Assembly (NCBI GenBank): GCA_916048095.2
Contig: OU696593.1
Location: forward strand, 434,001 to 498,000
Direction of reading: 5' to 3'
Length of the DNA stretch: 64,000 nt
Source of the DNA: Sacculina carcini
Taxonomy: Eukaryota; Arthropoda; Thecostraca; Sacculinidae
Shown here: positions 1 through 64,000 of the stretch, one piece after another
How the letters are laid out: each line of letters starts with the position of its first letter
Position numbering within the stretch: the first letter of the stretch is position 1
Program-made: the position numbers and the translations under genes
Notes under the pieces: generated by a model
Told to the model about the DNA's origin: nothing
Databases searched by the model: none
What the model saw: the letters and a program-made list of their open reading frames with translations, nothing else

Positions 1-1220
1 GTTACCTAAGTGTGCACTAAGTGTTACCTAAGTGTGCCCTAAGTGTTACCTACGTGTGCCCTAAGTGTTACCTAAGTGTACCCTAAGTGTTACCTCAGTG
101 TTACCTAAGTGTTACCTAAGTGTTACCTAAGTGTTACCTAAGTGCGCCCTAAGTGTTACCTAAGTTTGCCATAAGTGTTACATAAGTGTGCCCTAAGTGT
201 TACCTAAGTGTTACCTAAGTGTGCCCTAAGTGTTACCTACGTGTGCCCTAAGTGTTACCTACGTGTGCCCTAAGTGTTACCTAAGTGTGCCCTAAGTGTG
301 CCCTAAGTGTGCCCTAAGTGTGCCCTAAGTGTTACCTAAGTGTGCCCTAAGTGTTACCTAAGTGTGCCCTAAGTGTTACCTACGTGTGCCCTAAGTGTTA
401 CCTAAGTGTACCCTAAGTGTTACCTCAGTGTTACCTAAGTGTTACCTAAGTGTTACCTAAGTGTTACCTAAGTGTTACCTAAGTGTTACCTAAGTGTACC
501 CTAAGTGTTACCTAAGTGTTACCTAAGTGTTACCTAAGTGTTACCTCAGTGTGCCCTAAGTGTTACCTAAGTGTGCCCTAAGTGTTACCTAAGTGTTACC
601 TAAGTGTTACCTAAGTGTTACCTAAGTGTTACCTAAGTGTTACCTAAGTGTTACCTAAGTGTACCCTAAGTGTTACCTAAGTGTGCCCTAAGTGTTACCT
701 AAGTGTGCCCTAAGTGTTACCTAAGTGTTACCTAAGTGTTACCTAAGTGTGCCCTAAGTGTTACCTAAGTGTTACCTAAGTGTGCCCTAAGTGTTACCTA
801 AGTGTGCCCTAAGTGTTACCTAAGTGTGCCCGAAGTGTTACCTAAGTTTGCCCTAAGTGTTACATAAGTGTTACCTAAGTGTGCCCTAAGTGTTACCTAA
901 GTGTGCCCTAAGTGTTACCTAAGTGTGCCCTAAGTGTTACCTACGTGTGCCCTAAGTGTTACCTAAGTGTGCCCTAAGTGTTACCTAAGTATGCCCTAAG
1001 TGTTACCTAAGTGTGCCCTAAGTGTTACCTAAGTGTTACCTAAGTGTGCCCTAAGTGTACCCTAAGTGTTACCTAAGTGTTACCTAAGTGTTACCTAAGT
1101 GTTACCTAAGTGTTACCTAAGTGTTACCTAAGTGCGCCCTAAGTGTTACCTAAGTTTGCCATAAGTGTTACATAAGTGTGCCCTAAGTGTTACCTAAGTG
1201 TTACCTAAGTGTGCCCTAAG
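1..1220 (+). repeat. array block: HOR-A type, before first tandem duplication
   Basis: Starts inside a HOR. It contains m5 at 165 and 1155 (interval 990 bp), m7 near 846 and m8 near 990, so it is an HOR-A relative lacking two monomers. TGTGCACTAAG at 11-21 is a rare variant seen again near 2134 and 8019. Confidence 0.85.
286..329 (-). repeat. run of four m2 monomers, G-rich on minus strand
   Basis: Four consecutive TGTGCCCTAAG units put four GGG tracts 8 bases apart on the minus strand, each within TTAGGG. The same run occurs once in nearly every HOR copy, sometimes with three units. A G-quadruplex with 8-base loops is conceivable but not strong. Confidence 0.6.
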
Positions 1221-4200
1221 TGTTACCTACGTGTGCCCTAAGTGTTACCTACGTGTGCCCTAAGTGTTACCTAAGTGTGCCCTAAGTGTGCCCTAAGTGT
1301 GCCCTAAGTGTTACCTAAGTGTGCCCTAAGTGTTACCTAAGTGTGCCCTAAGTGTTACCTACGTGTGCCCTAAGTGTTACCTAAGTGTACCCTAAGTGTT
1401 ACCTCAGTGTTACCTAAGTGTTACCTAAGTGTTACCTAAGTGTTACCTAAGTGTTACCTAAGTGTTACCTAAGTGTTACCTAAGTGTACCCTAAGTGTTA
1501 CCTAAGTGTTACCTAAGTGTTACCTAAGTGTTACCTCAGTGTGCCCTAAGTGTTACCTAAGTGTGCCCTAAGTGTTACCTAAGTGTTACCTAAGTGTTAC
1601 CTAAGTGTTACCTAAGTGTTACCTAAGTGTTACCTAAGTGTTACCTAAGTGTACCCTAAGCGTTACCTAAGTGTGCCCTAAGTGTTACCTAAGTGTGCCC
1701 TAAGTGTTACCTAAGTGTTACCTAAGTGTTACCTAAGTGTGCCCTAAGTGTTACCTAAGTGTTACCTAAGTGTGCCCTAAGTGTTACCTAAGTGTGCCCT
1801 AAGTGTTACCTAAGTTTGCCCTAAGTGTTACATAAGTGTGCCCTAAGTGTTACCTAAGTGTTACCTAAGTGTGCCCTAAGTGTTACCTAATTGTGCCCTA
1901 AGTGTTACCTAAGTGTTACCTAAGTGTTACCTAAGTGCGCCCTAAGTGTTACCTAAGTTTGCCATAAGTGTTACATAAGTGTGCCCTAAGTGTTACCTAA
2001 GTGTTACCTAAGTGTGCCCTAAGTGTTACCTACGTGTGCCCTAAGTGTTACCTACGTGTGCCCTAAGTGTTACCTAAGTGTGCCCTAAGTGTGCCCTAAG
2101 TGTGCCCTAAGTGTGCCCTAAGTGTTACCTAAGTGTGCACTAAGTGTTACCTAAGTGTGCCCTAAGTGTTACCTACGTGTGCCCTAAGTGTTACCTAAGT
2201 GTACCCTAAGTGTTACCTCAGTGTTACCTAAGTGTTACCTAAGTGTTACCTAAGTGTTACCTAAGTGTTACCTAAGTGTTACCTAAGTGTTACCTAAGTG
2301 TTACCTAAGTGTACCCTAAGTGTTACCTAAGTGTTACCTAAGTGTTACCTAAGTGTTACCTCAGTGTGCCCTAAGTGTTACCTAAGTGTGCCCTAAGTGT
2401 TACCTAAGTGTTACCTAAGTGTTACCTAAGTGTTACCTAAGTGTTACCTAAGTGTTACCTAAGTGTTACCTAAGTGTACCCTAAGTGTTACCTAAGTGTG
2501 CCCTAAGTGTTACCTAAGTGTGCCCTAAGTGTTACCTAAGTGTTACCTAAGTGTTACCTAAGTGTGCCCTAAGTGTTACCTAAGTGTTACCTAAGTGTGC
2601 CCTAAGTGTTACCTAAGTGTGCCCTAAGTGTTACCTAAGTGTGCCCTAAGTGTTACCTAAGTTTGCCCTAAGTGTTACATAAGTGTTACCTAAGTGTGCC
2701 CTAAGTGTTACCTAAGTGTGCCCTAAGTGTTACCTAAGTGTGCCCTAAGTGTTACCTACGTGTGCCCTAAGTGTTACCTAAGTGTGCCCTAAGTGTTACC
2801 TAAGTATGCCCTAAGTGTTACCTAAGTGTGCCCTAAGTGTTACCTAAGTGTTACCTAAGTGTGCCCTAAGTGTACCCTAAGTGTTACCTAAGTGTTACCT
2901 AAGTGTTACCTAAGTGTTACCTAAGTGTTACCTAAGTGTTACCTAAGTGCGCCCTAAGTGTTACCTAAGTTTGCCATAAGTGTTACATAAGTGTGCCCTA
3001 AGTGTTACCTAAGTGTTACCTAAGTGTGCCCTAAGTGTTACCTACGTGTGCCCTAAGTGTTACCTACGTGTGCCCTAAGTGTTACCTAAGTGTGCCCTAA
3101 GTGTGCCCTAAGTGTGCCCTAAGTGTTACCTAAGTGTGCCCTAAGTGTTACCTAAGTGTGCCCTAAGTGTTACCTACGTGTGCCCTAAGTGTTACCTAAG
3201 TGTGCCCTAAGTGTTACCTAAGTATGCCCTAAGTGTTACCTAAGTGTGCCCTAAGTGTTACCTAAGTGTTACCTAAGTGTGCCCTAAGTGTACCCTAAGT
3301 GTTACCTAAGTGTTACCTAAGTGTTACCTAAGTGTTACCTAAGTGTTACCTAAGTGTTACCTAAGTGCGCCCTAAGTGTTACCTAAGTGTGCCCTAAGTG
3401 TGCCCTAAGTGTGCCCTAAGTGTGCCCTAAGTGTTACCTAAGTGTGCCCTAAGTGTTACCTAAGTGTGCCCTAAGTGTTACCTACGTGTGCCCTAAGTGT
3501 TACCTAAGTGTACCCTAAGTGTTACCTCAGTGTTACCTAAGTGTTACCTAAGTGTTACCTAAGTGTTACCTAAGTGTTACCTAAGTGTTACCTAAGTGTT
3601 ACCTAAGTGTTACCTAAGTGTACCCTAAGTGTTACCTAAGTGTTACCTAAGTGTTACCTAAGTGTTACCTCAGTGTGCCCTAAGTGTTACCTAAGTGTGC
3701 CCTAAGTGTTACCTAAGTGTTACCTAAGTGTTACCTAAGTGTTACCTAAGTGTTACCTAAGTGTTACCTAAGTGTTACCTAAGTGTACCCTAAGTGTTAC
3801 CTAAGTGTGCCCTAAGTGTTACCTAAGTGTGCCCTAAGTGTTACCTAAGTGTTACCTAAGTGTTACCTAAGTGTGCCCTAAGTGTTACCTAAGTGTTACC
3901 TAAGTGTGCCCTAAGTGTTACCTAAGTGTGCCCTAAGTGTTACCTAAGTTTGCCCTAAGTGTTACATAAGTGTGCCCTAAGTGTTACCTAAGTGTTACCT
4001 AAGTGTGCCCTAAGTGTTACCTAATTGTGCCCTAAGTGTTACCTAAGTGTTACCTAAGTGTTACCTAAGTGTTACCTAAGTGTTACCTAAGTGCGCCCTA
4101 AGTGTTACCTAAGTTTGCCATAAGTGTTACATAAGTGTGCCCTAAGTGTTACCTAAGTGTGCCCTAAGTGTTACCTAAGTGTTACCTAAGTGTGCCCTAA

Positions 4201-7105
4201 GTGTTACCTACGTGTGCCCTAAGTGTTACCTAAGTGTGCCCTAAGTGTGCCCTAAGTGTGCCCTAAGTGTGCCCTAAGTGTTACCTAAGTGTGCCCTAAG
4301 TGTTACCTAAGTGTGCCCTAAGTGTTACCTAAGTGTGCCCTAAGTGTTACCTAAGTGTACCCTAAGTGTTACCTCAGTGTTACCTAAGTGTTACCTAAGT
4401 GTTACCTAAGTGTTACCTAAGTGTTACCTAAGTGTTACCTAAGTGTTACCTAAGTGTACCCTAAGTGTTACCTAAGTGTTACCTAAGTGTTACCTAAGTG
4501 TTACCTAAGTGTGCCCTAAGTGTTACCTAAGTGTGCCCTAAGTGTTACCTAAGTGTTACCTAAGTGTTACCTAAGTGTTACCTAAGTGTTACCTAAGTGT
4601 TACCTAAGTGTACCCTAAGTGTTACCTAAGTGTGCCCTAAGTGTTACCTAAGTGTTACCTAAGTGTTACCTAAGTGTTACCTAAGTGTTACCTAAGTGCG
4701 CCCTAAGTGTTACCTAAGTTTGCCATAAGTGTTACATAAGTGTGCCCTAAGTGTTACCTAAGTGTGCCCTAAGTGTTACCTAAGTGTTACCTAAGTGTGC
4801 CCTAAGTGTTACCTACGTGTGCCCTAAGTGTTACCTAAGTGTGCCCTAAGTGTGCCCTAAGTGTGCCCTAAGTGTGCCCTAAGTGTTACCTAAGTGTGCC
4901 CTAAGTGTTACCTAAGTGTGCCCTAAGTGTTACCTACGTGTGCCCTAAGTGTTACCTAAGTGTACCCTAAGTGTTACCTCAGTGTTACCTAAGTGTTACC
5001 TAAGTGTTACCTAAGTGTTATCTAAGTGTTACCTAAGTGTTACCTAAGTGTTACCTAAGTGTACCCTAAGTGTTACCTAAGTGTTACCTAAGTGTTACCT
5101 AAGTGTTACCTAAGTGTGCCCTAAGTGTTACCTAAGTGTGCCCTAAGTGTTACCTAAGTGTTACCTAAGTGTTACCTAAGTGTTACCTAAGTGTTACCTA
5201 AGTGTTACCTAAGTGTTACCTAAGCGTTACCTAAGTGTACCCTAAGTGTTACCTAAGTGTGCCCTAAGTGTTACCTAAGTGTGCCCTAAGTGTTACCTAA
5301 GTGTTACCTAAGTGTTACCTAAGTGTGCCCTAAGTGTTACCTAAGTGTTACCTAAGTGTGTCCTAAGTGTTACCTAAGTGTGCCCTAAGTGTTACCTAAG
5401 TGTGCCCTAAGTGTTACCTAAGTTTGCCCTAAGTGTTACATAAGTGTTACCTAAGTGTGCCCTAAGTGTTACCTAAGTGTGCCCTAAGTGTTACCTAAGT
5501 GTGCCCTAAGTGTTACCTAAGTGTGCCCTAAGTGTTACCTAAGTGTGCCCTAAGTGTTACCTAAGTATGCCCTAAGTGTTACCTAAGTGTGCCCTAAGTG
5601 TTACCTAAGTGTTACCTAAGTGTGCCCTAAGTGTACCCTAAGTGTTACCTAAGTGTTACCTAAGTGTTACCTAAGTGTTACCTAAGTGTTACCTAAGTGT
5701 TACCTAAGTGTGCCCTAAGTGTTACCTAAGTTTGCCATAAGTGTTACATAAGTGTGCCCTAAGTGTTACCTAAGTGTTACCTAAGTGTGCCCTAAGTGTT
5801 ACCTACGTGTGCCCTAAGTGTTACCTACGTGTGCCCTAAGTGTTACCTAAGTGTGCCCTAAGTGTGCCCTAAGTGTGCCCTAAGTGTGCCCTAAGTGTTA
5901 CCTAAGTGTGCCCTAAGTGTTACCTAAGTGTGCCCTAAGTGTTACCTACGTGTGCCCTAAGTGTTACCTAAGTGTACCCTAAGTGTTACCTAAGTGTTAC
6001 CTAAGTGTTACCTAAGTGTTACCTAAGTGTTACCTAAGTGTTACCTAAGTGTTACCTAAGTGTTACCTAAGTGTTACCTAAGTGTACCCTAAGTGTTACC
6101 TAAGTGTTACCTAAGTGTTACCTAAGTGTTACCTCAGTGTGCCCTAAGTGTTACCTAAGTGTGCCCTAAGTGTTACCTAAGTGTTACCTAAGTGTTACCT
6201 AAGTGTTACCTAAGTGTTACCTAAGTGTTACCTAAGTGTTACCTAAGTGTACCCTAAGTGTTACCTAAGTGTGCCCTAAGTGTTACCTAAGTGTGCCCTA
6301 AGTGTTACCTAAGTGTTACCTAAGTGTTACCTAAGTGTGCCCTAAGTGTTACCTAAGTGTTACCTAAGTGTGCCCTAAGTGTTACCTAAGTGTGCCCTAA
6401 GTGTTACCTAAGTGTGCCCTAAGTGTTACCTAAGTTTGCCCTAAGTGTTACATAAGTGTTACCTAAGTGTGCCCTAAGTGTTACCTAAGTGTGCCCTAAG
6501 TGTTACCTAAGTGTGCCCTAAGTGTTACCTACGTGTGCCCTAAGTGTTACCTAAGTGTGCCCTAAGTGTTACCTAAGTATGCCCTAAGTGTTACCTAAGT
6601 GTGCCCTAAGTGTTACCTAAGTGTTACCTAAGTGTGCCCTAAGTGTACCCTAAGTGTTACCTAAGTGTTACCTAAGTGTTACCTAAGTGTTACCTAAGTG
6701 TTACCTAAGTGTTACCTAAGTGCGCCCTAAGTGTTACCTAAGTTTGCCATAAGTGTTACATAAGTGTGCCCTAAGTGTTACCTAAGTGTTACCTAAGTGT
6801 GCCCTAAGTGTTACCTACGTGTGCCCTAAGTGTTACCTACGTGTGCCCTAAGTGTTACCTAAGTGTGCCCTAAGTGTGCCCTAAGTGTGCCCTAAGTGTG
6901 CCCTAAGTGTTACCTAAGTGTGCCCTAAGTGTTACCTAAGTGTGCCCTAAGTGTTACCTACGTGTGCCCTAAGTGTTACCTAAGTGTACCCTAAGTGTTA
7001 CCTCAGTGTTACCTAAGTGTTACCTAAGTGTTACCTAAGTGTTACCTAAGTGTTACCTAAGTGTTACCTAAGTGTTACCTAAGTGTTACCTAAGTGTACC
7101 CTAAG
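1221..7105 (+). repeat. tandem segmental duplication, copy 1 (about 5.9 kb)
   Basis: The landmark series m5 at 1958, 2970, 4114, 4719, 5731 and 6743 is repeated in copy 2 at 7843, 8855, 10109, 10980, 11992 and 13004. Offsets run 5,885, then 5,874, then 5,995 bp before the SINE and 6,261 bp after it. Rare variants coincide, including TGTGCACTAAG (near 2134), TGTTATCTAAG (near 5016) and TGTGTCCTAAG (near 5357). Copy 1 lacks 11 monomers near 3.38 kb: an m4-m1 runs directly into four m2 without m5. Confidence 0.85.
4114..4718 (+). repeat. short HOR, 55 monomers, 605 bp
   Basis: A short form in which the third m3 is followed by m1, m2, six m1-type units and directly by m4, omitting the m7/m6 and m8/m11 parts. 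The same length occurs at 51911-52515. A further copy at 10109-10979 carries the SINE and lacks seven other monomers. It is useful as an empty-site comparison for the SINE. Confidence 0.85.
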
Positions 7106-10100
7106 TGTTACCTACGTGTGCCCTAAGTGTTACCTACGTGTGCCCTAAGTGTTACCTAAGTGTGCCCTAAGTGTGCCCTAAGTGTGCCCTAAGTGTTACC
7201 TAAGTGTGCCCTAAGTGTTACCTAAGTGTGCCCTAAGTGTTACCTACGTGTGCCCTAAGTGTTACCTAAGTGTACCCTAAGTGTTACCTCAGTGTTACCT
7301 AAGTGTTACCTAAGTGTTACCTAAGTGTTACCTAAGTGTTACCTAAGTGTTACCTAAGTGTTACCTAAGTGTACCCTAAGTGTTACCTAAGTGTTACCTA
7401 AGTGTTACCTAAGTGTTACCTCAGTGTGCCCTAAGTGTTACCTAAGTGTGCCCTAAGTGTTACCTAAGTGTTACCTAAGTGTTACCTAAGTGTTACCTAA
7501 GTGTTACCTAAGTGTTACCTAAGTGTTACCTAAGTGTACCCTAAGCGTTACCTAAGTGTGCCCTAAGTGTTACCTAAGTGTGCCCTAAGTGTTACCTAAG
7601 TGTTACCTAAGTGTTACCTAAGTGTGCCCTAAGTGTTACCTAAGTGTTACCTAAGTGTGCCCTAAGTGTTACCTAAGTGTGCCCTAAGTGTTACCTAAGT
7701 TTGCCCTAAGTGTTACATAAGTGTGCCCTAAGTGTTACCTAAGTGTTACCTAAGTGTGCCCTAAGTGTTACCTAATTGTGCCCTAAGTGTTACCTAAGTG
7801 TTCCCTAAGTGTTACCTAAGTGCGCCCTAAGTGTTACCTAAGTTTGCCATAAGTGTTACATAAGTGTGCCCTAAGTGTTACCTAAGTGTTACCTAAGTGT
7901 GCCCTAAGTGTTACCTACGTGTGCCCTAAGTGTTACCTACGTGTGCCCTAAGTGTTACCTAAGTGTGCCCTAAGTGTGCCCTAAGTGTGCCCTAAGTGTG
8001 CCCTAAGTGTTACCTAAGTGTGCACTAAGTGTTACCTAAGTGTGCCCTAAGTGTTACCTACGTGTGCCCTAAGTGTTACCTAAGTGTACCCTAAGTGTTA
8101 CCTCAGTGTTACCTAAGTGTTACCTAAGTGTTACCTAAGTGTTACCTAAGTGTTACCTAAGTGTTACCTAAGTGTTACCTAAGTGTTACCTAAGTGTACC
8201 CTAAGTGTTACCTAAGTGTTACCTAAGTGTTACCTAAGTGTTACCTCAGTGTGCCCTAAGTGTTACCTAAGTGTGCCCTAAGTGTTACCTAAGTGTTACC
8301 TAAGTGTTACCTAAGTGTTACCTAAGTGTTACCTAAGTGTTACCTAAGTGTTACCTAAGTGTACCCTAAGTGTTACCTAAGTGTGCCCTAAGTGTTACCT
8401 AAGTGTGCCCTAAGTGTTACCTAAGTGTTACCTAAGTGTTACCTAAGTGTGCCCTAAGTGTTACCTAAGTGTTACCTAAGTGTGCCCTAAGTGTTACCTA
8501 AGTGTGCCCTAAGTGTTACCTAAGTGTGCCCTAAGTGTTACCTAAGTTTGCCCTAAGTGTTACATAAGTGTTACCTAAGTGTGCCTTAAGTGTTACCTAA
8601 GTGTGCCCTAAGTGTTACCTAAGTGTGCCCTAAGTGTTACCTACGTGTGCCCTAAGTGTTACCTAAGTGTGCCCTAAGTGTTACCTAAGTATGCCCTAAG
8701 TGTTACCTAAGTGTGCCCTAAGTGTTACCTAAGTGTTACCTAAGTGTGCCCTAAGTGTACCCTAAGTGTTACCTAAGTGTTACCTAAGTGTTACCTAAGT
8801 GTTACCTAAGTGTTACCTAAGTGTTACCTAAGTGCGCCCTAAGTGTTACCTAAGTTTGCCATAAGTGTTACATAAGTGTGCCCTAAGTGTTACCTAAGTG
8901 TTACCTAAGTGTGCCCTAAGTGTTACCTACGTGTGCCCTAAGTGTTACCTACGTGTGCCCTAAGTGTTACCTAAGTGTGCCCTAAGTGTGCCCTAAGTGT
9001 TACCTAAGTGTGCCCTAAGTGTTACCTAAGTGTGCCCTAAGTGTTACCTACGTGTGCCCTAAGTGTTACCTAAGTGTGCCCTAAGTGTTACCTAAGTATG
9101 CCCTAAGTGTTACCTAAGTGTGCCCTAAGTGTTACCTAAGTGTTACCTAAGTGTGCCCTAAGTGTACCCTAAGTGTTACCTAAGTGTTACCTAAGTGTTA
9201 CCTAAGTGTTACCTAAGTGTTACCTAAGTATTACCTAAGTGCGCCCTAAGTGTTACCTAAGTTTGCCATAAGTGTTACATAAGTGTGCCCTAAGTGTTAC
9301 CTAAGTGTTACCTAAGTGTGCCCTAAGTGTTACCTACGTGTGCCCTAAGTGTTACCTACGTGTGCCCTAAGTGTTACCTAAGTGTGCCCTAAGTGTGCCC
9401 TAAGTGTGCCCTAAGTGTGCCCTAAGTGTTACCTAAGTGTGCCCTAAGTGTTACCTAAGTGTGCCCTAAGTGTTACCTACGTGTGCCCTAAGTGTTACCT
9501 AAGTGTACCCTAAGTGTTACCTCAGTGTTACCTAAGTGTTACCTAAGTGTTACCTAAGTGTTACCTAAGTGTTACCTAAGTGTTACCTAAGTGTTACCTA
9601 AGTGTTACCTAAGTGTACCCTAAGTGTTACCTAAGTGTTACCTAAGTGTTACCTAAGTGTTACCTCAGTGTGCCCTAAGTGTTACCTAAGTGTGCCCTAA
9701 GTGTTACCTAAGTGTTACCTAAGTGTTACCTAAGTGTTACCTAAGTGTTACCTAAGTGTTACCTAAGTGTTACCTAAGTGTACCCTAAGTGTTACCTAAG
9801 TGTGCCCTAAGTGTTACCTAAGTGTGCCCTAAGTGTTACCTAAGTGTTACCTAAGTGTTACCTAAGTGTGCCCTAAGTGTTACCTAAGTGTTACCTAAGT
9901 GTGCCCTAAGTGTTACCTAAGTGTGCCCTAAGTGTTACCTAAGTTTGCCCTAAGTGTTACATAAGTGTGCCCTAAGTGTTACCTAAGTGTTACCTAAGTG
10001 TGCCCTAAGTGTTACCTAATTGTGCCCTAAGTGTTACCTAAGTGTTACCTAAGTGTTACCTAAGTGTTACCTAAGTGTTACCTAAGTGCGCCCTAAGTGT

Positions 10101-10497
10101 TACCTAAGTTTGCCATAAGTGTTACATAAGTGTGCCCTAAGTGTTACCTAAGTGTGCCCTAAGTGTTACCTAAGTGTTACCTAAGTGTGCCCTAAGTGTT
10201 ACCTACGTGTGCCCTAAGTGTTACCTAAGTGTGCCCTAAGTGTGCCCTAAGTGTGCCCTAAGTGTGCCCTAAGTGTTACCTAAGTGTGCCCTAAGTGTTA
10301 CCTAAGTGTGCCCTAAGTGTTACCTACGTGTGCCCTAAGTGTTACCTAAGTGTACCCTAAGTGTTACCTCAGTGTTACCTAAGTGTTACCTAAGTGTTAC
10401 CTAAGTGTTACCTAAGTGTTACCTCAGTGTGCCCTAAGTGTTACCTAAGTGTGCCCTAAGTGTTACCTAAGTGTTACCTAAGTGTTACCTAAGTGTT

Positions 10498-10509
10498 ACC
10501 TAAGTGTTA
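10498..10509. repeat. left copy of probable 12-bp target-site duplication
   Basis: ACCTAAGTGTTA occurs immediately left of the SINE and again at 10841-10852. Because the target is an 11-bp tandem repeat, a 1-bp duplication would look identical; 12 bp is preferred because LINE-mediated insertion normally gives duplications of about this size. Confidence 0.6.
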
Positions 10510-10526
10510 AAGGTTAAAGGTTAAAT
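10506..10526 (-). repeat. 3' tail of the SINE, three 7-bp repeats
   Basis: On the plus strand the tail reads GTTAAAG twice, then GTTAAAT; on the minus strand the unit is CTTTAAC. Short tandem-repeat tails rather than poly(A) are known for SINEs mobilised by some LINE clades (for example L2/CR1 and RTE). The last TAAC also matches the satellite target. Confidence 0.85.
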
Positions 10527-10767
10527 GCCTAAGTGGCAGCTGCTACACGGAAGAAGCCGAAGCTTATGAACACACAGGCGTGCCCCGTGCAGCTCGCTGC
10601 CACCGCAGAACCGACCCTCTCCACGCTATGGCGCCACAAGGACGTAAGACGTATTAGAGAGGGCCACCTCCCCAGAATGCATGGCACAACTCATGACTGA
10701 TATCTGGTACCATTTACTGCTGGGTTGACAGGGGCTGTGGGATTGTAGAATTCGCCCAATGAAATTC
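10527..10767 (-). other. SINE body, tRNA-unrelated
   Basis: This is the central part of the SINE between the tRNA head and the tail. It was not recognised. Near its 5' end (minus strand) a short inverted repeat, AGAATT and AATTCT, could form a 6-bp stem around a 10-base loop. A stretch CCCAGCAGTAAATGG at about 10717-10731 gave a weak impression of a conserved invertebrate SINE core, but it cannot be assigned without a search. The body contains several CpGs, unlike the satellite around it. There is no run of four T on the minus strand, so no obvious Pol III terminator. Confidence 0.7.
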
Positions 10768-10777
10768 TGCTCCGCCG

Positions 10778-10788
10778 GGTTTCGAACC
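10778..10788 (-). promoter_or_regulatory. Pol III B box of the SINE
   Basis: The minus strand reads GGTTCGAAACC, a full match to the B-box consensus GGTTCGANNCC. It begins 44 bases after the start of the A box, within the normal spacing. With the A box it should be able to recruit TFIIIC. Confidence 0.9.
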
Positions 10789-10821
10789 ACGGACCTCCCG
10801 CTTGTGAGGCGGGTGTGCTAA

Positions 10822-10832
10822 CAACTGCACCA
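10822..10832 (-). promoter_or_regulatory. Pol III A box of the SINE
   Basis: The minus strand reads TGGTGCAGTTG, close to the eukaryotic tRNA A-box consensus (TRGYNNARNNGG). It sits 9 bases inside the 5' end of the element, as in tRNA genes. Confidence 0.8.
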
Positions 10833-10840
10833 CGGAGTCC

Positions 10841-10852
10841 ACCTAAGTGTTA
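10841..10852. repeat. right copy of probable 12-bp target-site duplication
   Basis: ACCTAAGTGTTA directly follows the tRNA-like 5' end of the SINE and equals the bases at 10498-10509. Its length is uncertain because it lies in tandem repeats. The SINE plus one 12-bp copy adds 343 bp, which explains the two-base register shift of the array. Confidence 0.6.
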
Positions 10853-11991
10853 CCTAAGTGTTACCTAAGTGTACCCTAAGTGTTACCTAAGTGTGCCCTA
10901 AGTGTTACCTAAGTGTTACCTAAGTGTTACCTAAGTGTTACCTAAGTGTTACCTAAGTGCGCCCTAAGTGTTACCTAAGTTTGCCATAAGTGTTACATAA
11001 GTGTGCCCTAAGTGTTACCTAAGTGTGCCCTAAGTGTTACCTAAGTGTTACCTAAGTGTGCCCTAAGTGTTACCTACGTGTGCCCTAAGTGTTACCTAAG
11101 TGTGCCCTAAGTGTGCCCTAAGTGTGCCCTAAGTGTGCCCTAAGTGTTACCTAAGTGTGCCCTAAGTGTTACCTAAGTGTGCCCTAAGTGTTACCTACGT
11201 GTGCCCTAAGTGTTACCTAAGTGTACCCTAAGTGTTACCTCAGTGTTACCTAAGTGTTACCTAAGTGTTACCTAAGTGTTATCTAAGTGTTACCTAAGTG
11301 TTACCTAAGTGTTACCTAAGTGTGCCCTAAGTGTTACCTAAGTGTTACCTAAGTGTTACCTAAGTGTTACCTCAGTGTGCCCTAAGTGTTACCTAAGTGT
11401 GCCCTAAGTGTTACCTAAGTGTTACCTAAGTGTTACCTAAGTGTTACCTAAGTGTTACCTAAGTGTTACCTAAGTGTTACCTAAGCGTTACCTAAGTGTG
11501 CCCTAAGTGTTACCTAAGTGTGCCCTAAGTGTTACCTAAGTGTGCCCTAAGTGTTACCTAAGTGTTACCTAAGTGTTACCTAAGTGTGCCCTAAGTGTTA
11601 CCTAAGTGTTACCTAAGTGTGTCCTAAGTGTTACCTAAGTGTGCCCTAAGTGTTACCTAAGTGTGCCCTAAGTGTTACCTAAGTTTGCCCTAAGTGTTAC
11701 ATAAGTGTTACCTAAGTGTGCCCTAAGTGTTACCTAAGTGTGCCCTAAGTGTTACCTAAGTGTGCCCTAAGTGTTACCTACGTGTGCCCTAAGTGTTACC
11801 TAAGTGTGCCCTAAGTGTTACCTAAGTATGCCCTAAGTGTTACCTAAGTGTGCCCTAAGTGTTACCTAAGTGTTACCTAAGTGTGCCCTAAGTGTACCCT
11901 AAGTGTTACCTAAGTGTTACCTAAGTGTTACCTAAGTGTTACCTAAGTGTTACCTAAGTGTTACCTAAGTGCGCCCTAAGTGTTACCTAAG

Positions 11992-13003
11992 TTTGCCATA
12001 AGTGTTACATAAGTGTGCCCTAAGTGTTACCTAAGTGTTACCTAAGTGTGCCCTAAGTGTTACCTACGTGTGCCCTAAGTGTTACCTACGTGTGCCCTAA
12101 GTGTTACCTAAGTGTGCCCTAAGTGTGCCCTAAGTGTGCCCTAAGTGTGCCCTAAGTGTTACCTAAGTGTGCCCTAAGTGTTACCTAAGTGTGCCCTAAG
12201 TGTTACCTACGTGTGCCCTAAGTGTTACCTAAGTGTACCCTAAGTGTTACCTCAGTGTTACCTAAGTGTTACCTAAGTGTTACCTAAGTGTTACCTAAGT
12301 GTTACCTAAGTGTTACCTAAGTGTTACCTAAGTGTTACCTAAGTGTACCCTAAGTGTTACCTAAGTGTTACCTAAGTGTTACCTAAGTGTTACCTCAGTG
12401 TGCCCTAAGTGTTACCTAAGTGTGCCCTAAGTGTTACCTAAGTGTTACCTAAGTGTTACCTAAGTGTTACCTAAGTGTTACCTAAGTGTTACCTAAGTGT
12501 TACCTAAGTGTACCCTAAGTGTTACCTAAGTGTGCCCTAAGTGTTACCTAAGTGTGCCCTAAGTGTTACCTAAGTGTTACCTAAGTGTTACCTAAGTGTG
12601 CCCTAAGTGTTACCTAAGTGTTACCTAAGTGTGCCCTAAGTGTTACCTAAGTGTGCCCTAAGTGTTACCTAAGTGTGCCCTAAGTGTTACCTAAGTTTGC
12701 CCTAAGTGTTACATAAGTGTTACCTAAGTGTGCCCTAAGTGTTACCTAAGTGTGCCCTAAGTGTTACCTAAGTGTGCCCTAAGTGTTACCTACGTGTGCC
12801 CTAAGTGTTACCTAAGTGTGCCCTAAGTGTTACCTAAGTATGCCCTAAGTGTTACCTAAGTGTGCCCTAAGTGTTACCTAAGTGTTACCTAAGTGTGCCC
12901 TAAGTGTACCCTAAGTGTTACCTAAGTGTTACCTAAGTGTTACCTAAGTGTTACCTAAGTGTTACCTAAGTGTTACCTAAGTGCGCCCTAAGTGTTACCT
13001 AAG
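11992..13003 (+). repeat. HOR-A reference copy, 92 monomers, 1,012 bp
   Basis: This is the full higher-order repeat from one m5 to the next. Order in words: m5, m6, then m2/m1/m9 alternation with two m9; four m2 in a row; m3 and m10; eight m1; m3; three m1; m10; m2, m1, m2; seven m1; m3; a mixed m1/m2 stretch; m7 and m6; m1/m2 with one m9; m8; m3; six m1; m4; m1. My count is 92 monomers. Other m5-to-m5 intervals of exactly 1,012 bp start at 1958, 4719, 5731, 7843, 10980, 15226, 41450, 44200, 53462 and 55013. The m8 monomer (TATGCCCTAAG) is diagnostic, though the copy at 44200 has lost it by one substitution. Confidence 0.9.
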
Positions 13004-16237: not shown

Positions 16238-17051
16238 TTTGCCATAAGTGTTACATAAGTGTGCCCTAAGTGTTACCTAAGTGTTACCTAAGTGTGCCCT
16301 AAGTGTTACCTACGTGTGCCCTAAGTGTTACCTACGTGTGCCCTAAGTGTTACCTAAGTGTGCCCTAAGTGTGCCCTAAGTGTGCCCTAAGTGTGCCCTA
16401 AGTGTTACCTAAGTGTGCCCTAAGTGTTACCTAAGTGTGCCCTAAGTGTTACCTACGTGTGCCCTAAGTGTTACCTAAGTGTACCCTAAGTGTTACCTCA
16501 GTGTTACCTAAGTGTTACCTAAGTGTTACCTAAGTGTTACCTAAGTGTTACCTAAGTGTTACCTAAGTGTTACCTAAGTGTACCCTAAGTGTTACCTAAG
16601 TGTTACCTAAGTGTTACCTAAGTGTTACCTCAGTGTGCCCTAAGTGTTACCTAAGTGTGCCCTAAGTGTTACCTAAGTGTTACCTAAGTGTTACCTAAGT
16701 GTTACCTAAGTGTTACCTAAGTGTTACCTAAGTGTTACCTAAGTGTACCCTAAGCGTTACCTAAGTGTGCCCTAAGTGTTACCTAAGTGTGCCCTAAGTG
16801 TTACCTAAGTGTTACCTAAGTGTTACCTAAGTGTGCCCTAAGTGTTACCTAAGTGTTACCTAAGTGTGCCCTAAGTGTTACCTAAGTGTGCCCTAAGTGT
16901 TACCTAAGTTTGCCCTAAGTGTTACATAAGTGTGCCCTAAATGTTACCTAAGTGTTACCTAAGTGTGCCCTAAGTGTTACCTAATTGTGCCCTAAGTGTT
17001 ACCTAAGTGTTACCTAAGTGGTACCTAAGTGCGCCCTAAGTGTTACCTAAG
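16238..17051 (+). repeat. HOR-B reference copy, 74 monomers, 814 bp
   Basis: It shares its first half with HOR-A but has seven rather than eight m1 after the first m10. The third m3 is followed by m12 (CGTTACCTAAG). The stretch after m7-m6 is replaced by a short m2/m1 stretch, m11 (TGTTACCTAAT), m2, three m1 and m4. Copies of exactly 814 bp also start at 46972, 56025 and 59919. Length variants of 803 (1155), 836 (32782, 39415, 45212, 50206) and 847 bp (23091, 24158) differ by whole m1 units or small blocks. The m12 and m11 markers occur together almost throughout, so they define a lineage. Confidence 0.88.
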
Positions 17052-18415: not shown

Positions 18416-19306
18416 TTTGCCATAAGTGTTACATAAGTGTGCCCTAAGTGTTACCTAAGTGTTACCTAAGTGTGCCCTAAGTGTTACCTACGTGTGCCCT
18501 AAGTGTTACCTACGTGTGCCCTAAGTGTTACCTAAGTGTGCCCTAAGTGTGCCCTAAGTGTGCCCTAAGTGTGCCCTAAGTGTTACCTAAGTGTGCCCTA
18601 AGTGTTACCTAAGTGTGCCCTAAGTGTTACCTACGTGTGCCCTAAGTGTTACCTAAGTGTACCCTAAGTGTTACCTCAGTGTTACCTAAGTGTTACCTAA
18701 GTGTTACCTAAGTGTTACCTAAGTGTTACCTAAGTGTTACCTAAGTGTTACCTAAGTGTTACCTAAGTGTACCCTAAGTGTTACCTAAGTGTTACCTAAG
18801 TGTTACCTAAGTGTTACCTCAGTGTGCCCTAAGTGTTACCTAAGTGTGCCCTAAGTGTTACCTAAGTGTTACCTAAGTGTTACCTAAGTGTTACCTAAGT
18901 GTTACCTAAGTGTTACCTAAGTGTTACCTAAGTGTACCCTAAGTGTTACCTAAGTGTGCCCTAAGTGTTACCTAAGTGTGCCCTAAGTGTTACCTAAGTG
19001 TTACCTAAGTGTTACCTAAGTGTGCCCTAAGTGTTACCTAAGTGTTACCTAAGTGTGCCCTAAGTGTTACCTAAGTGTGCCCTAAGTGTTACCTAAGTGT
19101 GCCCTAAGTGTTACCTAAGTTTGCCCTAAGTGTTACATAAGTGTTACCTAAGTGTGCCCTAAGTGTTACCTAAGTGTGCCCTAAGTGTTACCTAAGTGTG
19201 CCCTAAGTGTTACCTACGTGTGCCCTAAGTGTTACCTAAGTGTGCCCTAAGTGTTACCTAAGTGTTACCTAAGTGTTACCTAAGTGCGCCCTAAGTGTTA
19301 CCTAAG

Positions 19307-19471
19307 TTTGCCATAAGTGTTACATAAGTGTGCCCTAAGTGTTACCTAAGTGTTACCTAAGTGTGCCCTAAGTGTTACCTACGTGTGCCCTAAGTGTTAC
19401 CTAAGTGTTACCTAAGTGTTACCTAAGTGTTACCTAAGTGTTACCTAAGTGCGCCCTAAGTGTTACCTAAG
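19307..19471 (+). repeat. 15-monomer mini-HOR, 165 bp
   Basis: Two m5-m6 landmarks lie only 165 bp apart, with one m9 and five m1 before the next m4. The same 165-bp pair occurs at 22926, 27502, 28734, 32617 and 50041. Six copies at scattered places mark a shared junction that travelled with larger duplications. Confidence 0.85.
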
Positions 19472-46971: not shown

Positions 46972-49900
46972 TTTGCCATAAGTGTTACATAAGTGTGCCC
47001 TAAGTGTTACCTAAGTGTTACCTAAGTGTGCCCTAAGTGTTACCTACGTGTGCCCTAAGTGTTACCTACGTGTGCCCTAAGTGTTACCTAAGTGTGCCCT
47101 AAGTGTGCCCTAAGTGTGCCCTAAGTGTGCCCTAAGTGTTACCTAAGTGTGCCCTAAGTGTTACCTAAGTGTGCCCTAAGTGTTACCTACGTGTGCCCTA
47201 AGTGTTACCTAAGTGTACCCTAAGTGTTACCTCAGTGTTACCTAAGTGTTACCTAAGTGTTACCTAAGTGTTACCTAAGTGTTACCTAAGTGTTACCTAA
47301 GTGTTACCTAAGTGTACCCTAAGTGTTACCTAAGTGTTACCTAAGTGTTACCTAAGTGTTACCTCAGTGTGCCCTAAGTGTTACCTAAGTGTGCCCTAAG
47401 TGTTACCTAAGTGTTACCTAAGTGTTACCTAAGTGTTACCTAAGTGTTACCTAAGTGTTACCTAAGTGTTACCTAAGTGTACCCTAAGCGTTACCTAAGT
47501 GTGCCCTAAGTGTTACCTAAGTGTGCCCTAAGTGTTACCTAAGTGTTACCTAAGTGTTACCTAAGTGTGCCCTAAGTGTTACCTAAGTGTTACCTAAGTG
47601 TGCCCTAAGTGTTACCTAAGTGTGCCCTAAGTGTTACCTAAGTTTGCCCTAAGTGTTACATAAGTGTGCCCTAAGTGTTACCTAAGTGTTACCTAAGTGT
47701 GCCCTAAGTGTTACCTAATTGTGCCCTAAGTGTTACCTAAGTGTTACCTAAGTGTTACCTAAGTGCGCCCTAAGTGTTACCTAAGTTTGCCATAAGTGTT
47801 ACCTAAGTGTGCCCTAAGTGTTACCTAAGTGTTACCTAAGTGTGCCCTAAGTGTTACCTACGTGTGCCCTAAGTGTTACCTACGTGTGCCCTAAGTGTTA
47901 CCTAAGTGTGCCCTAAGTGTGCCCTAAGTGTGCCCTAAGTGTGCCCTAAGTGTTACCTAAGTGTGCCCTAAGTGTTACCTAAGTGTGCCCTAAGTGTTAC
48001 CTACGTGTGCCCTAAGTGTTACCTAAGTGTACCCTAAGTGTTACCTCAGTGTTACCTAAGTGTTACCTAAGTGTTACCTAAGTGTTACCTAAGTGTTACC
48101 TAAGTGTTACCTAAGTGTTACCTAAGTGTTACCTAAGTGTACCCTAAGTGTTACCTAAGTGTTACCTAAGTGTTACCTAAGTGTTACCTAAGTGTGCCCT
48201 AAGTGTTACCTAAGTGTGCCCTAAGTGTTACCTAAGTGTTACCTAAGTGTTACCTAAGTGTTACCTAAGTGTTACCTAAGTGTTACCTAAGTGTTACCTA
48301 AGTGTACCCTAAGTGTTACCTAAGTGTGCCCTAAGTGTTACCTAAGTGTGCCCTAAGTGTTACCTAAGTGTTACCTAAGTGTTACCTAAGTGTGCCCTAA
48401 GTGTTACCTACGTGTGCCCTAAGTGTTACCTACGTGTGCCCTAAGTGTTACCTAAGTGTGCCCTAAGTGTGCCCTAAGTGTGCCCTAAGTGTGCCCTAAG
48501 TGTTACCTAAGTGTGCCCTAAGTGTTACCTAAGTGTGCCCTAAGTGTTACCTACGTGTGCCCTAAGTGTTACCTAAGTGTACCCTAAGTGTTACCTCAGT
48601 GTTACCTAAGTGTTACCTAAGTGTTACCTAAGTGTTACCTAAGTGTTACCTAAGTGTTACCTAAGTGTTACCTAAGTGTACCCTAAGTGTTACCTAAGTG
48701 TTACCTAAGTGTTACCTAAGTGTTACCTCAGTGTGCCCTAAGTGTTACCTAAGTGTGCCCTAAGTGTTACCTAAGTGTTACCTAAGTGTTACCTAAGTGT
48801 TACCTAAGTGTTACCTAAGTGTTACCTAAGTGTTACCTAAGTGTACCCTAAGCGTTACCTAAGTGTGCCCTAAGTGTTACCTAAGTGTGCCCTAAGTGTT
48901 ACCTAAGTGTTACCTAAGTGTTACCTAAGTGTGCCCTAAGTGTTACCTAAGTGTTACCTAAGTGTGCCCTAAGTGTTACCTAAGTGTGCCCTAAGTGTTA
49001 CCTAAGTTTGCCCTAAGTGTTACATAAGTGTGCCCTAAGTGTTACCTAAGTGTTACCTAAGTGTGCCCTAAGTGTTACCTAATTGTGCCCTAAGTGTTAC
49101 CTAAGTGTTACCTAAGTGTTACCTAAGTGCGCCCTAAGTGTTACCTAAGTTTGCCATAAGTGTTACATAAGTGTGCCCTAAGTGTTACCTAAGTGTTACC
49201 TAAGTGTGCCCTAAGTGTTACCTACGTGTGCCCTAAGTGTTACCTACGTGTGCCCTAAGTGTTACCTAAGTGTGCCCTAAGTGTGCCCTAAGTGTGCCCT
49301 AAGTGTGCCCTAAGTGTTACCTAAGTGTGCCCTAAGTGTTACCTAAGTGTGCCCTAAGTGTTACCTACGTGTGCCCTAAGTGTTACCTAAGTGTACCCTA
49401 AGTGTTACCTCAGTGTTACCTAAGTGTTACCTAAGTGTTACCTAAGTGTTCCCTAAGTGTTACCTAAGTGTTACCTAAGTGTTACCTAAGTGTTACCTAA
49501 GTGTACCCTAAGTGTTACCTAAGTGTTACCTAAGTGTTACCTAAGTGTTACCTCAGTGTGCCCTAAGTGTTACCTAAGTGTGCCCTAAGTGTTACCTAAG
49601 TGTTACCTAAGTGTTACCTAAGTGTTACCTAAGTGTTACCTAAGTGTTACCTAAGTGTTACCTAAGTGTACCCTAAGTGTTACCTAAGTGTGCCCTAAGT
49701 GTTACCTAAGTGTGCCCTAAGTGTTACCTAAGTGTTACCTAAGTGTTACCTAAGTGTGCCCTAAGTGTTACCTAAGTGTTACCTAAGTGTGCCCTAAGTG
49801 TTACCTAAGTGTGCCCTAAGTGTTACCTAAGTGTGCCCTAAGTGTTACCTAAGTTTGCCCTAAGTGTTACATAAGTGTTACCTAAGTGTGCCCTAAGTGT

Positions 49901-51217
49901 TACCTAAGTGTGTCCTAAGTGTTACCTAAGTGTGCCCTAAGTGTTACCTACGTGTGCCCTAAGTGTTACCTAAGTGTGCCCTAAGTGTTACCTAAGTGTT
50001 ACCTAAGTGTTACCTAAGTGCGCCCTAAGTGTTACCTAAGTTTGCCATAAGTGTTACATAAGTGTGCCCTAAGTGTTACCTAAGTGTTACCTAAGTGTGC
50101 CCTAAGTGTTACCTACGTGTGCCCTAAGTGTTACCTAAGTGTTACCTAAGTGTTACCTAAGTGTTACCTAAGTGTTACCTAAGTGCGCCCTAAGTGTTAC
50201 CTAAGTTTGCCATAAGTGTTACATAAGTGTGCCCTAAGTGTTACCTAAGTGTTACCTAAGTGTGCCCTAAGTGTTACCTACGTGTGCCCTAAGTGTTACC
50301 TACGTGTGCCCTAAGTGTTACCTAAGTGTTACCTAAGTGTGCCCTAAGTGTGCCCTAAGTGTGCCCTAAGTGTTACCTAAGTGTGCCCTAAGTGTTACCT
50401 AAGTGTGCCCTAAGTGTTACCTACGTGTGCCCTAAGTGTTACCTAAGTGTACCCTAAGTGTTACCTCAGTGTTACCTAAGTGTTACCTAAGTGTTACCTA
50501 AGTGTTACCTAAGTGTTACCTAAGTGTTACCTAAGTGTTACCTAAGTGTACCCTAAGTGTTACCTAAGTGTTACCTAAGTGTTACCTAAGTGTTACCTCA
50601 GTGTGCCCTAAGTGTTACCTAAGTGTGCCCTAAGTGTTACCTAAGTGTTACCTAAGTGTTACCTAAGTGTTACCTAAGTGTTACCTAAGTGTTACCTAAG
50701 TGTTACCTAAGTGTACCCTAAGCGTTACCTAAGTGTGCCCTAAGTGTTACCTAAGTGTGCCCTAAGTGTTACCTAAGTGTTACCTAAGTGTTACCTAAGT
50801 GTGCCCTAAGTGTTACCTAAGTGTTACCTAAGTGTGCCCTAAGTGTTACCTAAGTGTGCCCTAAGTGTTACCTAAGTTTGCCCTAAGTGTTACATAAGTG
50901 TGCCCTAAGTGTTACCTAAGTGTTACCTAAGTGTGCCCTAAGTGTTACCTAATTGTGCCCTAAGTGTTACCTAAGTGTTACCTAAGTGTTACCTAAGTGT
51001 TACCTAAGTGTTACCTAAGTGCGCCCTAAGTGTTACCTAAGTTTGCCATAAGTGTTACATAAGTGTGCCCTAAGTGTTACCTAAGTGTGCCCTAAGTGTT
51101 ACCTAAGTGTTACCTAAGTGTGCCCTAAGTGTTACCTACGTGTGCCCTAAGTGTGCCCTAAGTGTTACCTAAGTGTGCCCTAAGTGTTACCTAAGTGCGC
51201 CCTAAGTGTTACCTAAG
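46972..51217 (+). repeat. superblock copy 3
   Basis: m5 at 46972, 47786, 49150, 50041, 50206 and 51042 repeat the intervals of 16.2-20.3 kb (offset 30,734 bp). From 47786 they also repeat those of 30.4-33.6 kb (offset 17,424 bp). In this copy the m6 after the m5 at 47786 has reverted to m1. A monomer TGTTCCCTAAG near 49447 is a private change. Confidence 0.83.
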
Positions 51218-54200
51218 TTTGCCATAAGTGTTACATAAGTGTGCCCTAAGTGTTACCTAAGTGTTACCTAAGTGTGCCCTAAGTGTTACCTACGTGTGCC
51301 CTAAGTGTTACCTAAGTGTACCCTAAGTGTTACCTCAGTGTTACCTAAGTGTTACCTAAGTGTTACCTAAGTGTTACCTAAGTGTTACCTAAGTGTTACC
51401 TAAGTGTTACCTAAGTGTTACCTAAGTGTACCCTAAGTGTTACCTAAGTGTTACCTAAGTGTTACCTAAGTGTTACCTCAGTGTGCCCTAAGTGTTACCT
51501 AAGTGTGCCCTAAGTGTTACCTAAGTGTTACCTAAGTGTTACCTAAGTGTTACCTAAGTGTTACCTAAGTGTTACCTAAGTGTACCCTAAGTGTTACCTA
51601 AGTGTGCCCTAAGTGTTACCTAAGTGTGCCCTAAGTGTTACCTAAGTGTTACCTAAGTGTTACCTAAGTGTGCCCTAAGTGTTACCTAAGTGTTACCTAA
51701 GTGTGCCCTAAGTGTTACCTAAGTGTGCCCTAAGTGTTACCTAAGTTTGCCCTAAGTGTTACATAAGTGTGCCCTAAGTGTTACCTAAGTGTTACCTAAG
51801 TGTGCCCTAAGTGTTACCTATTTGTGCCCTAAGTGTTACCTTATTGTTACCTAAGTGTTACCTAAGTGTTACCTAAGTGTTACCTAAGTGCGCCCTAAGT
51901 GTTACATAAGTTTGCCATAAGTGTTACATAAGTGTGCCCTAAGTGTTACCTAAGTGTGCCCTAAGTGTTACCTAAGTGTTACCTAAGTGTGCCCTAAGTG
52001 TTACCTACGTGTGCCCTAAGTGTTACCTAAGTGTGCCCTAAGTGTGCCCTAAGTGTGCCCTAAGTGTGCCCTAAGTGTTACCTAAGTGTGCCCTAAGTGT
52101 TACCTAAGTGTGCCCTAAGTGTTACCTACGTGTGCCCTAAGTGTTACCTAAGTGTACCCTAAGTGTTACCTCAGTGTTACCTAAGTGTTACCTAAGTGTT
52201 ACCTAAGTGTTACCTAAGTGTTACCTAAGTGTTACCTAAGTGTTACCTAAGTGTACCCTAAGTGTTACCTAAGTGTTACCTAAGTGTTACCTAAGTGTTA
52301 CCTCAGTGTGCCCTAAGTGTTACCTAAGTGTGCCCTAAGTGTTACCTAAGTGTTACCTAAGTGTTACCTAAGTGTTACCTAAGTGTTACCTAAGTGTTAC
52401 CTAAGTGTACCCTAAGTGTTACCTAAGTGTGCCCTAAGTGTTACCTAAGTGTTACCTAAGTGTTACCTAAGTGTTACCTAAGTGTTACCTAAGTGCGCCC
52501 TAAGTGTTACCTAAGTTTGCCATAAGTGTTACATAAGTGTGCCCTAAGTGTTACCTAAGTGTGCCCTAAGTGTTACCTAAGTGTTACCTAAGTGTGCCCT
52601 AAGTGTTACCTACGTGTGCCCTAAGTGTTACCTAAGTGTGCCCTAAGTGTGCCCTAAGTGTGCCCTAAGTGTGCCCTAAGTGTTACCTAAGTGTGCCCTA
52701 AGTGTTACCTAAGTGTGCCCTAAGTGTTACCTACGTGTGCCCTAAGTGTTACCTAAGTGTACCCTAAGTGTTACCTCAGTGTTACCTAAGTGTTACCTAA
52801 GTGTTACCTAAGTGTTATCTAAGTGTTACCTAAGTGTTACCTAAGTGTTACCTAAGTGTACCCTAAGTGTTACCTAAGTGTTACCTAAGTGTTACCTAAG
52901 TGTTACCTCAGTGTGCCCTAAGTGTTACCTAAGTGTGCCCTAAGTGTTACCTAAGTGTTACCTAAGTGTTACCTAAGTGTTACCTAAGTGTTACCTAAGT
53001 GTTACCTAAGTGTTACCTAAGCGTTACCTAAGTGTACCCTAAGTGTTACCTAAGTGTGCCCTAAGTGTTACCTAAGTGTGCCCTAAGTGTTACCTAAGTG
53101 TTACCTAAGTGTTACCTAAGTGTGCCCTAAGTGTTACCTAAGTGTTACCTAAGTGTGCCCTAAGTGTTACCTAAGTGTGCCCTAAGTGTTACCTAAGTGT
53201 GCCCTAAGTGTTACCTAAGTTTGCCCTAAGTGTTACATAAGTGTTACCTAAGTGTGCCCTAAGTGTTACCTAAGTGTGCCCTAAGTGTTACCTAAGTATG
53301 CCCTAAGTGTTACCTAAGTGTGCCCTAAGTGTTACCTAAGTGTTACCTAAGTGTGCCCTAAGTGTACCCTAAGTGTTACCTAAGTGTTACCTAAGTGTTA
53401 CCTAAGTGTTACCTAAGTGTTACCTAAGTGTTACCTAAGTGCGCCCTAAGTGTTACCTAAGTTTGCCATAAGTGTTACATAAGTGTGCCCTAAGTGTTAC
53501 CTAAGTGTTACCTAAGTGTGCCCTAAGTGTTACCTACGTGTGCCCTAAGTGTTACCTACGTGTGCCCTAAGTGTTACCTAAGTGTGCCCTAAGTGTGCCC
53601 TAAGTGTGCCCTAAGTGTGCCCTAAGTGTTACCTAAGTGTGCCCTAAGTGTTACCTAAGTGTGCCCTAAGTGTTACCTACGTGTGCCCTAAGTGTTACCT
53701 AAGTGTACCCTAAGTGTTACCTCAGTGTTACCTAAGTGTTACCTAAGTGTTACCTAAGTGTTACCTAAGTGTTACCTAAGTGTTACCTAAGTGTTACCTA
53801 AGTGTTACCTAAGTGTACCCTAAGTGTTACCTAAGTGTTACCTAAGTGTTACCTAAGTGTTACCTCAGTGTGCCCTAAGTGTTACCTAAGTGTGCCCTAA
53901 GTGTTACCTAAGTGTTACCTAAGTGTTACCTAAGTGTTACCTAAGTGTTACCTAAGTGTTACCTAAGTGTTACCTAAGTGTACCCTAAGTGTTACCTAAG
54001 TGTGCCCTAAGTGTTACCTAAGTGTGCCCTAAGTGTTACCTAAGTGTTACCTAAGTGTTACCTAAGTGTGCCCTAAGTGTTACCTAAGTGTTACCTAAGT
54101 GTGCCCTAAGTGTTACCTAAGTGTGCCCTAAGTGTTACCTAAGTGTGCCCTAAGTGTTACCTAAGTTTGCCCTAAGTGTTACATAAGTGTTACCTAAGTG

Positions 54201-62900: not shown

Positions 62901-64000
62901 GTGCCCTAAGTGTTACCTAAGTGTGCCCTAAGTGTTACCTAAGTGTGCCCTAAGTGTTACCTACGTGTGCCCTAAGTGTTACCTAAGTGTGCCCTAAGTG
63001 TTACCTAAGTATGCCCTAAGTGTTACCTAAGTGTGCCCTAAGTGTTACCTAAGTGTTACCTAAGTGTGCCCTAAGTGTACCCTAAGTGTTACCTAAGTGT
63101 TACCTAAGTGTTACCTAAGTGTTACCTAAGTGTTACCTAAGTGTTACCTAAGTGCGCCCTAAGTGTTACCTAAGTTTGCCATAAGTGTTACATAAGTGTG
63201 CCCTAAGTGTTACCTAAGTGTTACCTAAGTGTGCCCTAAGTGTTACCTACGTGTGCCCTAAGTGTTACCTACGTGTGCCCTAAGTGTTACCTAAGTGTTA
63301 CCTAAGTGTGCCCTAAGTGTGCCCTAAGTGTGCCCTAAGTGTTACCTAAGTGTGCCCTAAGTGTTACCTAAGTGTGCCCTAAGTGTTACCTACGTGTGCC
63401 CTAAGTGTTACCTAAGTGTACCCTAAGTGTTACCTCAGTGTTACCTAAGTGTTACCTAAGTGTTACCTAAGTGTTACCTAAGTGTTACCTAAGTGTTACC
63501 TAAGTGTTACCTAAGTGTACCCTAAGTGTTACCTAAGTGTTACCTAAGTGTTACCTAAGTGTTACCTCAGTGTGCCCTAAGTGTTACCTAAGTGTGCCCT
63601 AAGTGTTACCTAAGTGTTACCTAAGTGTTACCTAAGTGTTACCTAAGTGTTACCTAAGTGTTACCTAAGTGTTACCTAAGTGTACCCTAAGCGTTACCTA
63701 AGTGTGCCCTAAGTGTTACCTAAGTGTGCCCTAAGTGTTACCTAAGTGTTACCTAAGTGTTACCTAAGTGTGCCCTAAGTGTTACCTAAGTGTTACCTAA
63801 GTGTGCCCTAAGTGTTACCTAAGTGTGGCCTAAGTGTTACCTAAGTTTGCCCTAAGTGTTACATAAGTGTGCCCTAAGTGTTACCTAAGTGTTACCTAAG
63901 TGTGCCCTAAGTGTTACCTAATTGTGCCCTAAGTGTTACCTAAGTGTTACCTAAGTGTTACCTAAGTGTTACCTAAGTGTTACCTAAGTGCGCCCTAAGT
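59919..64000 (+). repeat. 3,894-bp duplication, copy 2, and array to window end
   Basis: m5 at 59919 and its altered counterpart at 60733 (TGTGCCCTAAG) match 56025 and 56839. The match ends near 61.80 kb, where m3 is followed by m10 instead of m12, the trace of a crossover. Then come short m3/m10 blocks, an HOR-A region with m8 near 63010, m5 at 63175, and an HOR-B ending with m12 and m11. The window stops just after an m4 at 63989. Confidence 0.8.

Follow-up and report, generated by a model that had tools for sequence, protein, structure and literature searches.

The window, which is the whole 64-kb stretch of DNA analysed in this study, consists of a single same-strand satellite with a monomer of 11 bp, interrupted once by a SINE-like insertion of 0.33 kb. 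The arrangement is as follows.

1-10508, plus strand: left-hand portion of the satellite array, with 955 monomers and 3 further bases, running past the window start
about 10509-10840, minus strand: SINE-like insertion with a tRNA-Val(CAC)-like head (10767-10839) and an unrelated body
10841-64000, plus strand: right-hand portion of the satellite array, with 4,833 monomers (only 8 bases remain of the first), running past the window end

Decomposition of the array yielded 5,788 monomers, i.e. about 5,800 copies of the motif. Lengths of 9, 10, 12 and 13 were permitted in the decomposition and none of them was needed: all but one of the 5,788 monomers (5,787) measure exactly 11 bp, and the exception is cut short by the insertion. 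The commonest monomers are GTTACCTAAGT (3,121 copies) and GTGCCCTAAGT (1,590 copies). There are 31 full-length monomer types, composed of these two main types, ten types with 24-246 copies and 19 rarer ones. The original prediction of an 11-bp satellite throughout the window, built of about a dozen monomer types, therefore holds, since 12 types have at least 24 copies, and their order is non-random. The two main monomers form a 22-bp alternation; identity is 92.2% at lag 22 versus 85.3% at lag 11, in agreement with the 22-bp period reported by TRF, which gave periods of 22 and 99 bp spanning nearly the entire window. All monomers have one orientation and GC skew is negative across the window, indicating that the array contains no inversion. 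A local cluster of rare variants (GTTACCTATTT and GTTACCTTATT) was seen at 51811-51916, adjoining a unit with an unusual second monomer, GTTACATAAGT.

The array has the properties of a satellite, a long head-to-tail non-coding array: it is 64 kb long in a single orientation and continues past both window ends. None of the listed open frames within the satellite sequence exceeds 32 codons, and a coding function was ruled out because the open frames are short. Hairpin-forming DNA was also ruled out, since 199 or 200 of 200 shuffles folded equally well or better for each of three idealised arrays. The minus strand of the two main monomers holds TTAGG and TTAGGG, the telomere motifs of arthropods and vertebrates, respectively; for an 11-bp unit this may be due to chance. 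The higher-order repeat (HOR) structure described below would speak against direct synthesis of the array by telomerase. Exact satellite patterns had no match among viral contigs or genome contigs, in viral, plasmid and prokaryotic collections that have little bearing on eukaryotes. Literature matches to 11-mers of the monomers, or to 12-13-mers of the monomers and the insertion, were by their titles apparent chance matches, such as primers.

HOR units were delimited by the G monomer, GCGCCCTAAGT, and there are 79 intervals between successive G monomers. Nine intervals are 92 monomers long, four are 74, five are 76 and four are 124, whereas the other 57 range from 5 to 222 monomers, so only 22 of the 79 units have one of these four lengths. 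The predicted units of 92 (HOR-A) and 74 (HOR-B) monomers exist as exact copies: four of the nine 92-mers are identical to the idealised HOR-A, and two of the four 74-mers to HOR-B. Three of the five 76-mers are identical to a 76-monomer version of B, a fourth exact copy of which lies inside a longer interval. By ungapped counts, one 92-mer differs from its reference at 14 monomers and one 76-mer at 16. The units are located as follows.

11971-12982, plus strand: exact HOR-A, 92 monomers, 1,012 bp; further exact copies start at 15205, 41429 and 53441
46951-47764, plus strand: exact HOR-B, 74 monomers, 814 bp; a second exact copy begins at 56004
starts at 19451, 32761, 45191 and 50185, plus strand: exact 76-monomer HOR-B, from the unit comparison
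17031-18394, plus strand: A/B hybrid, 124 monomers, 1,364 bp; others start at 30341, 47765 and 56818

Three blocks, of 33, 15 and 14 monomers, occur in HOR-A and HOR-B alike and in matching order. The differences between the two are one dropped monomer, a change of monomer A to monomer B, a deletion of two monomers and a distinct tail. HOR-A (92 monomers) and HOR-B (74 or 76 monomers) are two versions of one repeat, and the 1,364-bp unit is a recombinant of the two. The idealised 124-mer is exactly monomers 1-57 of A followed by monomers 8-74 of B, and its junction can be placed anywhere within a stretch of three monomers. The four observed 124-mers each depart from this idealised hybrid at one or two monomers. 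There are eight occurrences of the hybrid junction motif. A search with one exact string gave no match to the reciprocal product. Thus, of the proposal that two HOR families are interleaved here, the two units stand, but they are versions of one repeat that share blocks and have formed a hybrid.

Linkage between markers was seen at the 57 TK sites, of which 22 are preceded by B (GTACCCTAAGC), 34 by A and one is unassigned. After B, the N-type tail follows in 22 of 22 cases, one of them holding a variant monomer. After A, another tail follows in 27 of 34 cases and the N-type tail in seven, one with a variant monomer. This is the haplotype-like behaviour of linked markers that had been noted originally.

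Beyond these units we found two features that were absent from the original prediction, namely the insertion and a super-repeat whose copies are 364-428 monomers (4.0-4.7 kb) long. Between 17031 and 34498 four of these copies directly follow one another; another is found at 47765-51889.

17031-21628, plus strand: super-repeat copy 1, 418 monomers
21629-26336, plus strand: super-repeat copy 2, 428 monomers
26337-30340, plus strand: super-repeat copy 3, 364 monomers, the most rearranged
30341-34498, plus strand: super-repeat copy 4, 378 monomers
47765-51889, plus strand: super-repeat copy 5, 375 monomers, not adjacent to the others

The ten pairwise alignments of the copies gave 99.38-99.83% identity over 316-396 aligned monomers. 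These values are inflated by free gap placement, and in the extreme case 48 monomers of a shorter copy of 364 (13%) remained unaligned. Each pair has 7-24 substitutions and 4-16 gaps; as monomers were aligned, gap lengths are multiples of 11 by construction and give no independent evidence on register. The independent evidence for the 11-bp register is the monomer decomposition (5,787 of 5,788). The order of the array has four tiers: 11 bp, 22 bp, about 1 kb (approximately 0.8-1.4 kb) and about 4 kb (4.0-4.7 kb).

In a HOR, copies of the unit are more alike than neighbouring monomers. This is the case here, where exact copies of A and B occur and super-repeat copies are 99.4-99.8% identical in their aligned monomers, versus the 85.3% and 92.2% at lags 11 and 22. 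A canonical HOR also has a constant tandem unit length, which was not found, 57 of the 79 intervals being of other lengths. The array fits the looser sense of a variant or cascading HOR, and the fixed monomer order that had been proposed applies to the modules but not to the length of the unit.

Autocorrelation was calculated for 10849-64000, leaving out the left 10.8 kb, at lags of 495-1991 bp that are multiples of 11. Lags of 1364, 814 and 1012 bp ranked first, second and third among 137, so the three peaks that had been set beforehand as a test of the HORs were the top three to the right of the insertion. In the whole window the monomer autocorrelation was weaker because unit length varies: it was 0.411 at lag 124, 0.403 at lag 92 and 0.391 at lag 74, versus 0.371 (sd 0.005) for permuted order. 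Markov surrogates of order 1, 2 and 4 had maxima of at most 0.403, but those of order 8 (n = 20) attained 0.418 at one of the lags from 20 to 199. By height alone the whole-window peaks are therefore not separable from the order-8 null. When only marker monomers were used in the whole window, lags 92, 124, 294, 74, 428 and 418 were among the eleven strongest (range 2-599).

The length of exact repeats is stronger evidence for order than peak height. The longest exact repeat is 169 monomers, compared with 14-20 in permuted surrogates, 19-30 in Markov-2, 28-40 in Markov-4 and 71-127 in Markov-8 surrogates (20 each), in keeping with the prediction that monomer variants are not distributed at random. 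Greedy cutting of the array into exact pieces of the A and B strings needed 262 pieces, versus 1,924-1,948 in five permutations, and 86% of the monomers lie inside exact 20-monomer stretches of A, B, the 76-monomer B, their head-to-tail junctions or the hybrid.

We consider it probable, at roughly 85%, that the window is part of a non-coding eukaryotic satellite array shaped by unequal exchange or conversion in the 11-bp register. Point mutations would have produced the monomer variants, and repeated unequal exchange that depends on homology, accompanied by gene conversion or by replication-based copying, would have duplicated, deleted and joined blocks of whole monomers. HOR-A and HOR-B may have been derived from one ancestral unit by such edits. 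Recombination between A and B within a shared stretch of three monomers would then have yielded the 1,364-bp unit, and this unit plus its neighbours may have been amplified as the 4-kb block.

The apparent junctions bear on the role of homology. In eight of eight subsets they shared more homology than in-register random breakpoints of the same gap size, although junction contexts are not independent events. In one example of 95 contexts, the mean was 4.33 shared monomers versus 1.45 ± 0.24 at random, and 19 of the 95 had zero homology versus 42% expected. Across the subsets, 14-27% of the contexts (e.g. 22 of 82) were without whole-monomer homology. An initial count of 425 contexts (mean 4.20 versus 1.52) was discarded as inflated.

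Similarity between units does not rise with proximity (Mantel r = -0.14 over 71 anchors, with 1,998 of 2,000 permutations at or above this value). Simple local duplication alone would not give this result; the super-repeat accounts for its sign, as an explanation after the fact. In six of nine settings of a crude neutral simulation of in-register exchange, the longest exact repeat spanned 101-420 monomers (169 observed) and 4-25 types were common (12 observed); the other three settings failed, with longest repeats of 6-76. Three of the six successful settings had no homology requirement (h = 0). Because long repeats also arise at h = 0 and the register is built in, the simulation proves neither homology nor register.

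The four adjoining super-repeat copies of 364-428 monomers could also reflect rolling-circle amplification, in which extrachromosomal circles carrying at least one HOR are copied and then integrate again, so that tandem blocks such as the 4-kb super-repeat are made at once. Satellite circles of plants sized in multiples of the monomer or the HOR, as described in the part of PMC2543021 available, offer a precedent. The 4-16 gaps per super-repeat pair mean that later or other exchange would be needed as well, and we regard rolling-circle copying as an unlikely origin of the array. Under unequal exchange in register, it is a possible helper in making the 4-kb blocks.

The insertion has a head identified as tRNA-Val(CAC) by ARAGORN, with 48.5 bits for Rfam tRNA, and a 3' end of two TTTAACC repeats and a partial one. 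Elements of this kind, headed by a tRNA, point to a eukaryote. Its edges were placed by eye in a repetitive target and may be off by a few bases. A target-site duplication of about 11-12 bp would agree with the phase of the flanking array, but in such a target it is indistinguishable from none. There is no second copy in the 64-kb window, and the element probably arrived after the neighbouring block was last copied. At 10526-10535 on the minus strand, in its 3' region, the insertion reads CACTTAGGCA, which lacks one G relative to CACTTAGGGCA of the satellite. Such a likeness would be expected had the satellite arisen from the 3' terminus of some SINE or LINE family, and a Nin-SINE origin is suggested for a limpet satellite in the title of PMC11121367. 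The common stretch is short, however, with a chance match estimated roughly at one in seven, and no other copies of the element were found in plasmids, phages or, with one exact 21-base pattern, viral contigs, collections whose silence tells little about eukaryotes. We think that this origin is very improbable.

Besides mutation and exchange, selection on the register may be considered. The 11-bp register could be actively kept, e.g. by a protein bound once per helical turn with removal of out-of-register indels, and the four-tier order could be functional at a centromere or heterochromatic block. No out-of-register indel was found beside the 31 occurrences of 18 rare monomer types. Small indels usually arise at about one per eight substitutions, so 2-4 would be expected there; this is only a hint of register keeping. 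None of the monomer positions shows the full invariance that could mark a binding site, and variants occur at all 11 positions, the least variable being positions 5 (12 of 5,787 variant) and 7 (4 of 5,787). We judge active maintenance with such a function to be quite unlikely. By analogy with satellites in general, the array may have a role, for instance in heterochromatin or at the centromere.

Arrays of this kind are hard to assemble, and an assembler may collapse or misjoin repeats. An artefact of assembly or sequencing was assessed from the sequence itself. The array carries rare variants of its own at many places, no out-of-register indel occurs among the 5,788 monomers, and hybrid junctions recur, the junction motif being present eight times. 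These features make an artefact highly improbable, and unequal exchange or conversion in register remains our preferred reading.

With no more than two common monomers and a further ten types that act as markers, the history of this satellite is unusually legible: crossover points, hybrid units and a later amplification are visible at base level. Models of how HORs originate could be tried on it. It is a good specimen, with four-tier order and perfect register, but not a new category, and it can be understood as the probable outcome of repeated unequal exchange; by itself it does not change the knowledge of satellites in general.

The alpha-satellite monomer, on which HORs are best known, is about 170 bp. 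The original statement that a HOR of such short monomers is unusual was too strong, since human HSat2 and DYZ1 (PMC4022460) and deer satellite I (PMC7288315) precede it, as far as these sources are available. HSat2 has a unit of 1.77 kb and DYZ1 (HSat3A6) one of 3.6 kb, and these satellites are described as likely derived from CATTC (PMC4022460); the TRASH paper gives monomers of 5-42 bp for human HSat1A, HSat2 and HSat3 (PMC10199239, in the part available). Like the present array, human satellites 2 and 3 have a short ancestral unit built into long units in large arrays (PMC4022460), but that unit is 5 bp versus 11 bp here, with no sequence relation by eye. Satellite I of cervids and bovids also has a short subrepeat in units of about 0.8 and 1 kb, the deer units of 0.8 and 1 kb being made from a 31-bp subrepeat (PMC7288315); by the same partial account the two unit sizes mark separate deer groups, whereas here both occur in one array. 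In primate cascading or intertwined alpha-satellite HORs, such as the 18mer, 27mer and 45mer with a common backbone and the 59mer of orangutan chromosome 13, several unit lengths lie on one aligned backbone and some monomer types recur within a unit, as in our array (PMC11276891, in the part available). Alpha-satellite monomers are about 170 bp versus 11 bp here, and in our array two types make up most of the unit. Among the papers examined from our literature search for 11-bp satellites, the one with a unit of about 11 bp concerns Adamussium colbecki, whose Ac4p1 satellite is described, in the available part of PMC5874043, as a 33-bp repeat from an approximately 11-bp subrepeat. Compared by description and not by letters, Ac4p1 shares with our array the 11-bp subrepeat and a variable subrepeat number, but its subrepeats are more diverged and are arranged in 33-bp units (PMC5874043).
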